This document shows positions 58,745 through 64,000 of a DNA stretch of 64,000 nt, one piece after another. The DNA is from Candidatus Agathobaculum intestinipullorum. GTDB lineage: Bacteria; Bacillota; Clostridia; Oscillospirales; Butyricicoccaceae. The DNA is taken from contig DWZQ01000037.1 in NCBI GenBank assembly GCA_019117485.1, positions 1 through 64,000 of the forward strand. The letters run 5' to 3'. The number at the start of each line of letters is the position of its first letter. Within the stretch, counting starts at the first letter, position 1. The translations under genes and the position numbers were made by a program. The notes under the pieces were generated by a model that had not been told where the DNA came from, made no database searches, and was given only the letters and a program-made list of their open reading frames with translations.

Positions 58745-58844
58745 CCGCAAAAATCGCGCCGCACGGCGCGTATACAGCAGAAAAGAACCGCCCTAAAAGG
58801 CGTGGTTCCGTAAGAAAACATTTATGTGAGAGAATCGACGTAGT

Positions 58845-59357
58845 TTAGGCTACGCCGGTTTTCTTTTCTTTTTGGGCTGCTTGGGATTGCTCTCTTGCTT
58901 CCTCAAAATCAAATGCACCAATGAAGTTATAGACAATCTCAATTTCTCTGACCTTAATGCGCGGCTCGTTCTCGTCTGGCGTGTAAACCTCGGAGATATA
59001 AATTTTATCCACGAACTCCCGGAGAACAGAGGCGTCAAGCTGCTGCATATCGGTGTACTTTCTGACCGCTGCAATAAACTGTCTGACGTTGACTTTCTGC
59101 TTCTCCTGTTCCTTGACTTCCTGCCGCAGATGTTCGACAAGATTTGTAAGGTTGGTCTGTTCCAGTTCATAGTCACGGGACAGTTTGATGAAACGCTCGT
59201 CGGAGAGCTTGCCGGAAATGTTATCCTCGTACAGTCGCTTGATGATAACATCCAGCTCGGCAATCCGCTTTTGCGATTGCGCCAGAGTATCTTTCTTTTG
59301 TGCCAGCTCCTTGTCCCGTTCCCGCAGGCTTTGATCTGCGGCCCGCTTCACAAAGTC
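58845..59357 (-). pseudogene. C-terminal remnant of a DUF4368-type serine recombinase
   Basis: DFVKRAADQSLRERDKELAQKKDTLAQSQKRIAELDVIIKRLYEDNISGKLSDERF...; catalytic N-terminus absent. Confidence 0.9.
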
Positions 59358-59601
59358 GTTGCTCAGCCTCCTTCTTCATCAGAAGTTCTTCCGGCGAGGG
59401 CTGCGCCCAGCCGATGGCCGCTTTTTCAATCCCGTCATCGCAGTCCAGGGAATACTGTGCTTTGTAGCGATACATCTTGCGCTCACGGGTCGCCTCAGCT
59501 CGCTTGTCCAGTAGGAATGTTTCGACGATCTCATCGGACACCTCCACAAAGATGTCCGATGTGCAGAACGGATAGTATTGTTTCAGATTGATGGTCTGCA
59601 T
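59352..59601 (-). pseudogene. Truncated sigma-70-like gene, N-terminal half only, fused at its 3' end to the recombinase remnant
   Basis: MQTINLKQYYPFCTSDIFVEVSDEIVETFLLDKRAEATRERKMYRYKAQYSLD...PEELLMKKEAEQRL, then frame diverges; homologous to the next ORF. Confidence 0.82.
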
Positions 59602-59611
59602 AGGCGCGCCC

Positions 59612-60064
59612 TCACTCGGATTGTGGGAGCGTTCCATAGTAGCGCCGCATATTGTTCAGGCCCCGATGGATGGCAACCGTGACCTTGCTGCTGTGTACGC
59701 CCTCCCTGCGGGAGATCTCGGTCTGTGTGATGCCGGAAATATAGTAGGCGTACACGCGGCGGGCCTGTGTCGGAGTGGCATGGGAAAGGGCCTTTGGTAA
59801 GGCAGCCAACAGCCGAAGATATGCCGTGCGATCTTCCTGCTCCATCAGAATGTCCTCCGGTGATCTGGCGTGTTCCAGCGCATAGTTCTCCATCCAGCTA
59901 TAAGCGTCCAGAGAGTACCAGGCGCGGTGGTTGATTTTTCGGCGCTCGTAGTTGTTCATCTCCCGCTGAGCCTGCTGCATTGCCTCCCATACCTCGTCGC
60001 TGACCTCTACGAACTCGTCGTGCCGGTAGTGGGGATAAATCCACCGCAGATTGATTGTTTTCAT
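59612..60064 (-). CDS. Sigma-70-like family protein (element-borne)
   Basis: MKTINLRWIYPHYRHDEFVEVSDEVWEAM...TPTQARRVYAYYISGITQTEISRREGVHSSKVTVAIHRGLNNMRRYY (region-4-like HTH); RBS AGGAGG. Confidence 0.83.
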   Translation of the reverse strand: MKTINLRWIYPHYRHDEFVEVSDEVWEAMQQAQREMNNYERRKINHRAWYSLDAYSWMENYALEHARSPEDILMEQEDRTAYLRLLAALPKALSHATPTQARRVYAYYISGITQTEISRREGVHSSKVTVAIHRGLNNMRRYYGTLPQSE

Positions 60065-60144
60065 AGGCTTACCTCCTGAAAATGGGAGAGGCGGGCAGCT
60101 TGTCCGCTGTCTGCCTCCTGTTGGGATAAGGGAAACAATTCCTT

Positions 60145-60579
60145 TCACTTGGTAGCCCGAAAAGGTTCAATCGTTAGGGTGGTTTGCGAAAAATTCAGGA
60201 ACTTTTTCCGAACTGCAAGAATGCTCTCGTAGACGGATACTTTGGAGCAGCCACACATTGCCCCGATCTCCGCAAGGGTCAATCCGTCCAGCGCATAGAG
60301 CAGAAACCGGCGGCGCTGGGCCTCGGTACAGGTGTCCAGGACGGCCAGCAGCTCGTCCAGCGTTTCCATGCGGCAAAGGTATTCTTCCGGCGTTTCGCCG
60401 TAGATGCCCACGCCTTCGGTGGCAATTATGTATTCGTCAAACTCCCGGCCGTCCCAATGCCGCCGCTGTTTGTGCAGCAGGTTTTCCGTTTTGTGGTCGG
60501 CTTGGTCAAGAAATTCATAGACTTCCAGCGTGACCTCCACGGTCACAGCTTGTCCGTTGTAAATGATGGTGACTTCCAT
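60145..60579 (-). CDS. Sigma-70-like family protein (element-borne, divergent)
   Basis: TEAQRRRFLLYALDGLTLAEIGAMCGCSKVSVYESILAVRKKFLN HTH. Confidence 0.78.
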   Translation of the reverse strand: MEVTIIYNGQAVTVEVTLEVYEFLDQADHKTENLLHKQRRHWDGREFDEYIIATEGVGIYGETPEEYLCRMETLDELLAVLDTCTEAQRRRFLLYALDGLTLAEIGAMCGCSKVSVYESILAVRKKFLNFSQTTLTIEPFRATK

Positions 60580-60873
60580 CTGCCTGTCCTCCGTTCAGAT
60601 TTTTGTGGGAAAATCTGAACGGGGCGGCGGGGAACGACACCGGGGCTGACATAGAAAAACGCCCGGACATCATGAAGCTATTCGGGCGCAAGAAATACGA
60701 TATTCAACTACATTATAACAATTTTCACACTGGCTGTCAGACGGAGGGCGTTCGGTTTCCAGGCTTTTTTTGATGACGACACAAACATCTGCGTTTGTTG
60801 GCTGTTAAGTAAACACATAGCGGCTCCTTCCGTGAGCCGCCAATCGTAGCATTACTTCTTGAAAGACAAAACA

Positions 60874-60918
60874 AACGGCGGCTTTGAAATGGTACTTTCA
60901 AAACCGCCGTTCATTTTG
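60874..60918 (-). terminator. Strong hairpin/terminator downstream of the FlxA-like gene
   Basis: AACGGCGGCTTTGAAA-TGGTAC-TTTCAAAACCGCCGTT; T-rich tail on the minus strand. Confidence 0.75.
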
Positions 60919-61003
60919 TAATGATCTGATCAAAGCGCAACAGACTTCGGCCACCGAACCAACGGTTTTTTTATATACCGTCTCATTGGCAGCTTGGCAC
61001 TCT

Positions 61004-61327
61004 CTATACATAGACATCTATGTATTTTCCGGCATCTATTGCCTTGGAGGAAGATTCCTGCGCTTTTTGTATATCACTGGACTCCGTTTTTTGTGCTTTC
61101 TCATTCTCCTGTTTTCTGAGCTGCTGAATTTGCTTTTCAATTTCTTTAATTTGTTTTTCCAGCTTTTCTTTTTGCTTTTCATCTTTACGCTGAGTGGCTT
61201 TCTGTTTTTCGGTTTCCAGCTTCTGTAGTTTTTGCTCCAAGGACTGGATTTTAGAATCGACACCAGCACCTTGCTGTGGCGCTGAATTACCAGATGGAGA
61301 ATTGGGGTAAACCGAAGAAATATTCAT
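61004..61327 (-). CDS. FlxA-like small coiled-coil protein
   Basis: MNISSVYPNSPSGNSAPQQGAGVDSKIQSLEQKLQKLETEKQKATQRKDEKQKEKLEKQIKEIEKQIQQLRKQ...AGKYIDVYV; RBS GGAAGGTGA. Confidence 0.8.
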   Translation of the reverse strand: MNISSVYPNSPSGNSAPQQGAGVDSKIQSLEQKLQKLETEKQKATQRKDEKQKEKLEKQIKEIEKQIQQLRKQENEKAQKTESSDIQKAQESSSKAIDAGKYIDVYV

Positions 61328-61371
61328 AAAATCACCTTCCAGTTTGAGCATAACGATTCTTGATGTAGGAA

Positions 61372-62679
61372 TCAATAGTTTTGTCTTGAACTGTTATCTG
61401 CTGGTAATGAAATGTTTAGTAATACATTCAGGAAAAATTTCTTGTCATGTGTTTCTATTAATATTGCACCGTGATATTTTTGTGCCACTGACTTAATATT
61501 GGAAAGTCCGATTCCCATGTGGGGCAAACTATTTTCAGAACAGGTATTGTAAAATTCCAGCAAATAAAAATCTCCCTGCTGTTTCCCAGTAATGCTTATG
61601 GAGCTTGTTCCCTCAATAGACTGGCAGGCTTTTAACGCGTTATCTAAAGCATTCGCAAATACGATACACAAATCCAAATCATCAATCTCACATACTTTCG
61701 GAAGAAGCAGGGACACCTCTGCTTTGATTCCGTTTGCTTTCGCCAATTCCAGTTTTTCACTCAACAAAACATCCACTACAGGGTTTCCTGTCTGATAAGG
61801 AAACGATAAAGATGTTGATATACCTTCGAGTTTTTTCAAATAGTCCCGACTTTCAGCAATCTGCCCGTTGCGTAACAACCCATCCAGCAGCAACAAATGG
61901 TTCTTAATATCATGGCGAAATGCCTTCGTCTGCTCATAACGCATCTGAGCTTCCGAGATGTATACCTTTTGTGCCTGGGCTGCTTGCGTCAAGGAAGCCA
62001 ACGCAGACTGTGCTTGAAATCCAGAACAGATCCGCCGGTATGCATACAAAGTACAAAGCAGTGCTGCCAACCCCAGTCCTTGTATGAATAATAGCCCAAG
62101 ATGTTTTCCTGCCTCAGTCAGGGAAAGTGTAGAAGATACCTGGCTGTATGACATGTGGAGAAGGTATACCTCTGCCAGAAAGAAAAACAGCCCTGGAAGC
62201 AGTAAGAGACCAATGTATGGTGTTTGGTCGTTTTCTTTCAACGGCAGTAAACTTAACACGGCAGCATAACAGCAGATGCAGATCGCAAAAGCAGCTGCTG
62301 TTGCAAAAGCAAGGAGCAGATACAACAGAGGCATCCCAACAAAATGTGGAAATATGATACTCTCTATGGAGTTTATCAGCCCAAATGACAACTGGGAGAT
62401 ATAAATTGCAATCGTTGCCGACAGAAAAGATACGGAGCATTTGCTTCTCAATGCAACTTGGCTTATACCAGATAATAAAAGCAACTGCATACCAATTGCT
62501 ACCGTGTTAATGATTGTGCTCTGGGCAGCAGCAAATCCCAAAATAAAAAGAACACCAGGATATAACACAAAGCACCATATTCTATATTTCTTCCCCAAAA
62601 GTCGGCTCATAAAAATAAGCTGTATCGCACTTTGTGCGAGCAGGCAAACGCTCTCAAATAGTACACTAAAATAATCCAT
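61372..62679 (-). CDS. AgrC-type sensor histidine kinase (GHKL ATPase)
   Basis: N-terminal multi-TM; AFRHDIKNHLLLLDGLLRNGQIAESRDYLKKLEG; ANALDNALKAC; MGIGLSNIKSVAQKYHG. Confidence 0.92.
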   Translation of the reverse strand: MDYFSVLFESVCLLAQSAIQLIFMSRLLGKKYRIWCFVLYPGVLFILGFAAAQSTIINTVAIGMQLLLLSGISQVALRSKCSVSFLSATIAIYISQLSFGLINSIESIIFPHFVGMPLLYLLLAFATAAAFAICICCYAAVLSLLPLKENDQTPYIGLLLLPGLFFFLAEVYLLHMSYSQVSSTLSLTEAGKHLGLLFIQGLGLAALLCTLYAYRRICSGFQAQSALASLTQAAQAQKVYISEAQMRYEQTKAFRHDIKNHLLLLDGLLRNGQIAESRDYLKKLEGISTSLSFPYQTGNPVVDVLLSEKLELAKANGIKAEVSLLLPKVCEIDDLDLCIVFANALDNALKACQSIEGTSSISITGKQQGDFYLLEFYNTCSENSLPHMGIGLSNIKSVAQKYHGAILIETHDKKFFLNVLLNISLPADNSSRQNY

Positions 62680-62680
62680 A

Positions 62681-63394
62681 TCAACATCCTTTTTCTTTCA
62701 TATATCGCAGAAGTGCCTCCGTTAATTCGCGTTCCCGTAATCTTGAAACTGGAATACTGCTGCCATCTGATAAAAAAACTTGCCCGGAATGACTGCCTCT
62801 GACCTGGTCAAGATTGACTAAGTAACTCCTGTGACATCTGAAAAACCGTCCGTCAACCTGTCGCTCAAAATCATTCAGTTTCTCATAATAGTCAACAATT
62901 TTTCCATTCTCCTGATGAATGTACACTTTCCGTCCCTGCACTTCACAATATAAAATCTGAGAGAGCGGAATTACCTCACAAGAAGTTCCTTTTAAGATGA
63001 CGATCCGCTTTGAGGTATGTTGTTCCAATGTTCTCATGGCTCGATCCATCATTTTTTTGAAATGCAAATCGTCTATCGGTTTTACCAGATAATCGTATGC
63101 TTGCACTTCAAAAGCATCAAATACATATTCTTTTAGAACCGTTATAAAAACCACAAGACAGTGTATGTTTCGTTGTCTCAACATTTTAGCCGTTTCCATC
63201 CCATCGGGCTGTTCCATCTGAATATCAAGAAATATCACATCAAAGTCACATGAACTTTCCAGCAAGGAACGGCCATTTGAAAAACTGCTGATATGGTAAG
63301 CTGCATCCTGATTCTCTTGCATGTATGTTGAAATAAATTCGCGTATTTTTTGGGTCATGGACGGCTCATCATCACAAACTGCAAATTTTATCAT
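62681..63394 (-). CDS. LytTR response regulator (AgrA/VirR type)
   Basis: MIKFAVCDDEPSMTQKI...DVIFLDIQM receiver; C-terminal LytTR RFFRCHRSYLVNLDQVRG. Confidence 0.93.
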   Translation of the reverse strand: MIKFAVCDDEPSMTQKIREFISTYMQENQDAAYHISSFSNGRSLLESSCDFDVIFLDIQMEQPDGMETAKMLRQRNIHCLVVFITVLKEYVFDAFEVQAYDYLVKPIDDLHFKKMMDRAMRTLEQHTSKRIVILKGTSCEVIPLSQILYCEVQGRKVYIHQENGKIVDYYEKLNDFERQVDGRFFRCHRSYLVNLDQVRGSHSGQVFLSDGSSIPVSRLRERELTEALLRYMKEKGC

Positions 63395-63518: not shown

Positions 63519-64000
63519 TTATAAACAATTCTGTGCGGCTTCTGCTTTGAAAACTGGATGACGGTAATAAAAATGCCTTTTTTTCATGTCCTCGGCTCGG
63601 ATAGCGGCTTTTTCGGCCTCCATTTTTGCCTTTCGTTTGGCGTTGTACCGTTCTTCCCATTCCTTCTGTTTGCCGTTTGCCTTGCGGCGCAAGTAGTTCT
63701 GGTGAAGCCTGTCTTTGCGTGCCTCCTTCTTCCGGAGTTCTTCCTGTTCCTCCGGGGTCAGAGGAAGCGGCTGCAAGGCGGACGGGATATACCGGCCCAC
63801 AAAATTGAAGTAGATTTCAACCTCCTGTGTGGGGTCCTGGCTTCCTTTGCAGGCGCGTTCATGGACAAGAATTTTCTCTACAAACTCGTTGAGCATGGTG
63901 TTTGTCAGCGTGTCGAAATTCTCATACTTGTCAATCAGGGCAATAAACTTTTCCGCTGATTTCCGGCTCTGCTCATAGCCGGTAACGGCCTTTTCCAGTT
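63519..64000 (-). CDS. C-terminal part of another serine recombinase (5' end beyond window)
   Basis: Frame open to window edge: LEKAVTGYEQSRKSAEKFIALIDKYENFDTLTNTMLNEFVEKILVHERACKGSQDPTQEVEIYFNFVGRYIPSALQ. Confidence 0.88.
   Translation of the reverse strand, partial: LEKAVTGYEQSRKSAEKFIALIDKYENFDTLTNTMLNEFVEKILVHERACKGSQDPTQEVEIYFNFVGRYIPSALQPLPLTPEEQEELRKKEARKDRLHQNYLRRKANGKQKEWEERYNAKRKAKMEAEKAAIRAEDMKKRHFYYRHPVFKAEAAQNCL

Follow-up and report, generated by a model that had tools for sequence, protein, structure and literature searches.

The locus considered here raises two questions: how a reading frame that begins as a gene for a small sigma factor-like protein came to end in the DNA of a serine recombinase, and why two further genes of the same kind stand beside it. 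The locus lies in the window, the 64,000-nucleotide stretch of DNA that was analyzed (positions 1 to 64,000 of contig DWZQ01000037.1, designated C5, of Candidatus Agathobaculum intestinipullorum). Comparisons with related loci indicate that the region is very probably a decayed Tn6104-like integrative and mobilizable element (IME), with its region-4 regulatory cassette cut by a deletion, that is nested in an integrative and conjugative element (ICE) of the Tn1549 type.

The array comprises three consecutive minus-strand genes that encode related small HTH proteins of the sigma-70 region-4 type. ORF3 (60145-60579) encodes a sigma region-4-like HTH protein of 144 aa (Pfam Sigma70_r4_2, E 3.8e-6). 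ORF2 (59612-60064) is intact and encodes a protein of the same type of 150 aa, for which the Sigma70_r4_2 match (E 7e-5) is under the curated cut-off. Both genes are present where the preliminary description of this DNA placed them and are consecutive with ORF1. For ORF1 itself, given there as 59601-59352, the start is correct and the end is not: its own frame runs from 59601 to a stop at 59221 (126 aa), and 59352 is the start of the recombinase frame. The ORF1 remnant (59221-59601, minus strand) is composed of approximately 80 ORF1 residues followed by approximately 46 out-of-frame residues from recombinase DNA; the intact ORF1 of a related locus from an uncultured Mediterraneibacter, L072, has 160 aa. 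ORF1 and ORF2, described earlier as clear paralogs, share 42% identity over 78 aa (E 8e-17), and ORF2 and ORF3 share 29% over 112 aa (E 1e-8). All three are thus paralogs, with ORF3 the more distant one. The ORF2 orthologs in L072 and in a further related locus, L073, are 97% identical, and ORF3 orthologs, which are 78-88% identical and head most intact arrays, are 53-65% identical in more distant arrays. The dN/dS values of the array genes against relatives are 0.07-0.22 (0.07-0.10 for the N-terminal part of ORF1), pointing to purifying selection on these genes in the past. In comparison with L072 and L073, ORF3 has a small deletion in a T run (window 60145-60220, minus strand), and the frameshift alters its final residues; this deletion is either decay or a homopolymer error.

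The junction within ORF1, GAGCAA/CGACTTTGTG as read on the minus strand, was placed at 59359-59366 by base-level alignment to both parents, which have at most approximately 1 base in common there. On its left, the minus-strand segment 58845-59359 contains the C-terminal 171 codons of a large serine recombinase of the DUF4368 type, the integrase of a Tn1549-like conjugative element. The frame of this tail (58845-59354) matches Pfam DUF4368 with an E value of 4e-20 and corresponds to residues 456-626 of the 626-aa recombinase of locus L024, with 97% protein identity. At the DNA level, identity to intact arrays is 81-84% over window 59368-60640, right of the junction, where the similarity stops; identity to full-length recombinases is 94% over window 58798-59359, on the left, and this similarity starts at the junction. 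L072 is 95% identical over C5 59360-61377, its homology reaching to a few bases short of the junction, and then continues into a complete ORF1. In a genus-wide DNA search, relatives fall into two disjoint sets, with arrays matching only on the right and recombinases only on the left. Alignment to intact elements thereby located both parents, the homologies of which meet within a few bases, and L072 and L024 fit the earlier proposal that ORF1 lost its HTH half and runs out of frame into a recombinase C terminus.

The same fusion was looked for as a conserved architecture. None of the 78 related array loci collected with ORF2 as the query spans the junction; of 297 genomes of the order, this one alone has the junction pattern when up to two mismatches are allowed; and the exact pattern has no match in viral contigs. 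A conserved functional fusion was rejected on these grounds. As judged from the alignments, the ORF1 fusion is a deletion scar and not a new gene, and it is most likely without function. A chimeric regulator that works and is held by selection is hardly credible. An open frame of 126 aa whose N-terminal part is intact and has a low dN/dS against relatives would be in keeping with such a protein, but the DNA-binding half is gone, the tail is out of frame, the fusion occurs in no other genome, and the dN/dS mostly reflects the time preceding the deletion. Also considered was an assembly or binning artefact in which a contig carrying the array was joined to an integrase end. The junction is seen in a single draft assembly (48 contigs), mobile elements are difficult to assemble, and a contig end falls inside the element. 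However, with only approximately 1 base common to both parents at the junction, a repeat-driven misjoin is unlikely; in addition, the gene order agrees with a simple deletion in an ICE carrying a nested IME, and a second, independent scar and a frameshift are found close by. An artefact is therefore very unlikely, and the deletion scar is the reading followed below.

The array itself had been regarded as an unexplained crowding of sigma-like genes; it is instead a conserved cassette of Tn6104-like mobilizable elements. The order ORF3-ORF2-ORF1 is present in 31 of the 78 loci, approximately as many have a fourth paralog, ORF0, behind ORF1, and six have the arrangement ORF3-ORF2-ORF0. The cassette order is alike in nearly all intact loci. 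In most loci, the array is followed by DUF3847 and then by a MobA/MobL relaxase gene, and LSR_A, the mobilizable element's own recombinase, is often found upstream. The protein tree has one group for each of ORF3, ORF0, and ORF1; on the rooting used, ORF2 is a grade. This grouping by position indicates that the duplications are old and that each position has its own lineage. A Monoglobus record contains the same module with two sigma-like genes. Enterococcus plasmid matches are at 32%, and in one case a lone sigma-like gene adjoins an operon for bacitracin resistance, with no array.

This architecture is that of Tn6104, a mobilizable transposon within Tn6103 of Clostridioides difficile R20291, published in 2011, in which a large serine recombinase, TnpV, a two-component system, three tandem sigma factor-like genes (1754-1756), and MobA/MobL follow one another and which excises (PMC3158075). 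Compared by its published description only, Tn6104 resembles the relatives of the window array both in gene order and in being nested in a conjugative element. The intact relatives, including L072 (95% DNA identity), have tandem sigma-like genes followed by DUF3847 and MobA/MobL, whereas the window has lost the genes that would follow ORF1. Similarly, relatives carry a large serine recombinase of the element itself upstream of the array and its accessory genes, and in the window contig this recombinase is a broken remnant (63519-64674). Tn6104 is intact and excises; the window copy is without mob genes, half of ORF1, and an intact recombinase. Because it matches the published Tn6104, the array is known, and what the truncated copy adds is one new instance of it.

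The nesting is visualized in relatives as a split coupling-protein gene. L073 has the order RepA, virD4 5' part, LSR_A, LytTR regulator, GHKL kinase, small protein, ORF3, ORF2. When the VirD4 protein of G004, a genome with an intact ICE, was aligned to such loci, it matched up to residue 241-243 before LSR_A and from residue 229-231 behind the mob module. This pattern is found, with few exceptions, in approximately 50 loci, indicating that the IME inserts at one virD4 site. IMEs inserted in traG (virD4) of ICEs have been reviewed for streptococci and C. difficile (PMC5704250), and Tn1549_traG IMEs of S. suis and the traG sites of Tn1549-related ICEs have been described (PMC7168690). The elements share a serine integrase, replisome organizer/DnaC, and a fixed site inside the coupling-protein gene. 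The present case differs in that the host ICE has itself suffered deletion and neither half of virD4 is left in the window. In G004 (contig C2), the genes of the intact ICE are ordered RepA, VirD4, transfer genes, relaxase, and an integrase of the tail's family, and RepA and the integrase tail have this order and orientation in the window too. Between these two, an estimated 32-44 kb is absent in the window, including the family-defining VirD4 and transfer genes.

The remains around the array follow the order RepA, broken LSR_A, LytTR, GHKL, FlxA-like, ORF3, ORF2, ORF1 remnant along the window contig. The end of the conjugative element against chromosomal DNA lies at approximately 58795-58815 (near 58811), where the sequence shared downstream of the recombinase stops in comparisons with genomes G006, G017, and G015. 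On the other side of the array, three accessory genes are found on the minus strand: a gene for a FlxA-like small coiled-coil protein (61004-61375; Pfam FlxA, E 3.7e-7), which precedes the array in L072 too; a GHKL sensor kinase gene (61372-62679; HATPase_c_5, E 1e-18), with a relative at the same place in L073; and a LytTR response regulator gene (62681-63394; LytTR, E 8e-20; Response_reg, E 9e-17). In L073, the LytTR and GHKL genes occupy the same place in diverged form; L072 retains the FlxA-like gene alone. The LSR_A remnant (63519-64000, minus strand; DUF4368, E 1.5e-22) goes on to contig position 64674 and aligns to residues 258-628 of the intact L073 recombinase; its catalytic front is deleted, and a frameshift is present. 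The second scar (L021) is found just past the window, at C5 ~64640, where the start of a small ORF behind RepA, which we take to be DUF5348-like, leads into LSR_A codon 258; the frameshift lies further on. RepA has 79% protein identity to that of G004. The contig ends at 65922, inside the element, and the far end of the element is beyond.

MobL is absent from this genome, and the one virD4 found in it sits elsewhere, on contig C44, so a mere relocation of the missing part to a different contig does not account for its loss. The C44 locus (L154, around 100865-101602) has a complete virD4 frame of 609 aa, so that this genome probably contains another Tn1549-like ICE, one with no IME at the virD4 site. 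On contig C27 of the same genome, a full-length recombinase of the tail's family (L028, 9503-11353, minus strand, 616 aa) adjoins a methyltransferase gene.

Set against the sequences of relatives, these pieces point to a history in which a Tn6104-like IME would have inserted into virD4 of a Tn1549-like ICE, an event reconstructed from relatives because both virD4 halves are gone here. On this reading, ORF3-ORF2-ORF1 is the conserved regulatory cassette of the IME, which normally heads a mobilization operon that comprises DUF3847, MobA/MobL, a replisome organizer, and DnaC. A first deletion joined ORF1 codon 80 to codon 456 of the ICE integrase, the last gene before the chromosome; lost with it were the mob genes, the 3' portion of virD4, the transfer genes, and the catalytic domain of the integrase. 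A second deletion removed the 5' portion of virD4 together with the LSR_A catalytic domain. In relatives, the mob genes, the virD4 3' half, the conjugation machinery, and the front of the integrase lie between the two breakpoints of the first deletion, and the estimated loss (~32-44 kb) is the sum of ~6 kb of IME and 26-38 kb of ICE as they are found there, such that the deletion probably measured tens of kilobases. The internal deletion proposed in the preliminary description, leaving a chimeric scar, is upheld by the two intact parents, but the loss extends far beyond one recombinase domain. No relative with both this array and this integrase was found, and the common origin of the two therefore rests on gene order. 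With both recombinases dead, the remnant is unable to excise by its own means.

The array proteins were called sigma-70-like, a description that holds for only one part of a sigma factor. In HMM searches of the 42 members of an ORF2/ORF1/ORF0 alignment, 39 match Sigma70_r4 or Sigma70_r4_2, and none matches region 2 at E <= 0.1. The predicted model of ORF2 (mean pLDDT 82, with a weak stretch at residues 41-70) is composed of an N-terminal portion with two strands and a long helix, followed by the HTH, with no full region 2. Its structure matches are sigma factors, best over region 4, all with E > 0.001; the sigma region 4 domain 3vfz is matched with a target-normalised TM score of 0.88 over 60 columns. 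The model of ORF3 was poor (pLDDT 52) and was left out of the fold comparison. With region 4 kept and no region 2 detected, these are region-4-only regulators rather than proven sigma factors. Most likely, they control the mobilization operon, by a mechanism that we infer: having a DNA-binding head of the region-4 type and no region 2, they would most likely bind DNA at element promoters and, together with the housekeeping RNA polymerase, activate or modulate transcription there. A functional analogy, by description only, is found in Tn916, where orf7/orf8 specify a small sigma-annotated protein with proposed control of excision and transfer genes (PMC7288454, PMC9137128). Tn916 belongs to a different element family, and no array of three to four paralogs is described there.

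Upstream of ORF3, a conserved leader (60580-60740, minus strand) comprises a promoter-like site, CTGACA-17-TATAAT (60712-60740), a terminator-like hairpin followed by a T run (60659-60689), and a hairpin adjoining the Shine-Dalgarno site (60591-60623). The leader is kept over 36 distinct sequences, with pairing in 98.7% of cells and with compensatory changes, on both sides of the pair, in 34 cells that belong to four pairs. The leader cell count and the covariation score exceed those of shuffled alignments, whereas the number of double-change pairs does not (188 of 500 shuffles); the support for pairing is good but not proof, as the kinship of the sequences can inflate such scores. The leader has no match in Rfam at threshold. 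The promoter-like hexamers are strong in the window and weaker in most relatives, and a conserved sigma-A promoter upstream of ORF3 was dropped as a candidate. The terminator hairpin would limit transcription into the operon. Farther upstream, between the FlxA-like gene and the leader, the minus strand contains a 20-pair hairpin with a T-rich stretch (60869-60916), likely the terminator of the accessory genes. A match to Rfam SQ2397, a cis-regulator of an HTH transcription factor (60856-61013, minus strand; E 0.047, 28.5 bits against a gathering threshold of 100), is outside the leader and was rejected.

Two other modes of action were weighed against that of region-4-only activators or modulators. 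The preliminary description and the 2011 authors of Tn6104 suggested that the array encodes genuine alternative sigma factors that serve element promoters, perhaps as a cascade, or, in the preliminary description, that the copies may have promoters of their own. The sigma factor view agrees with the region 4 fold and sequence and with a TIGR02937 match that spans nearly all of ORF2, although weakly (E 1.6e-5, below cut-off). The failure of all 42 members to match region 2, the restriction of PDB sigma-factor profile matches to residues 78-144, and a modelled N terminus of strands and a long helix make this view unlikely. The leader brings in another mode, in which the proteins would be antitermination factors that carry RNA polymerase past the leader terminator and not promoter-binding activators. 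In its favor, the stretch from the promoter-like site to ORF3 contains a terminator-like hairpin that shows compensatory changes, the transfer genes of Tn916 use antitermination (PMC11658703), and a few members weakly match the phage antitermination protein Q. The Q matches, however, are no better than chance (E 0.07-0.13), and the hairpin may do no more than insulate the operon, or it may serve the system of another regulator; antitermination by these proteins is rather improbable. Viewed as a unit, three to four region-4-only proteins and a terminator-bearing leader might conceivably form one switch, of an unrecognised type, that governs read-through into the mobilization operon; this speculative reading would apply to a large family of elements nested in virD4.

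The odd fusion at this locus becomes a step in the decay of an element and is linked with a family of elements that is widespread in gut Clostridia. A question raised in 2011, namely the role of the tandem sigma-like proteins of Tn6104, is now more testable, with a cassette order that is fixed across many genera, proteins with no region 2, and a conserved, terminator-bearing leader as handles.
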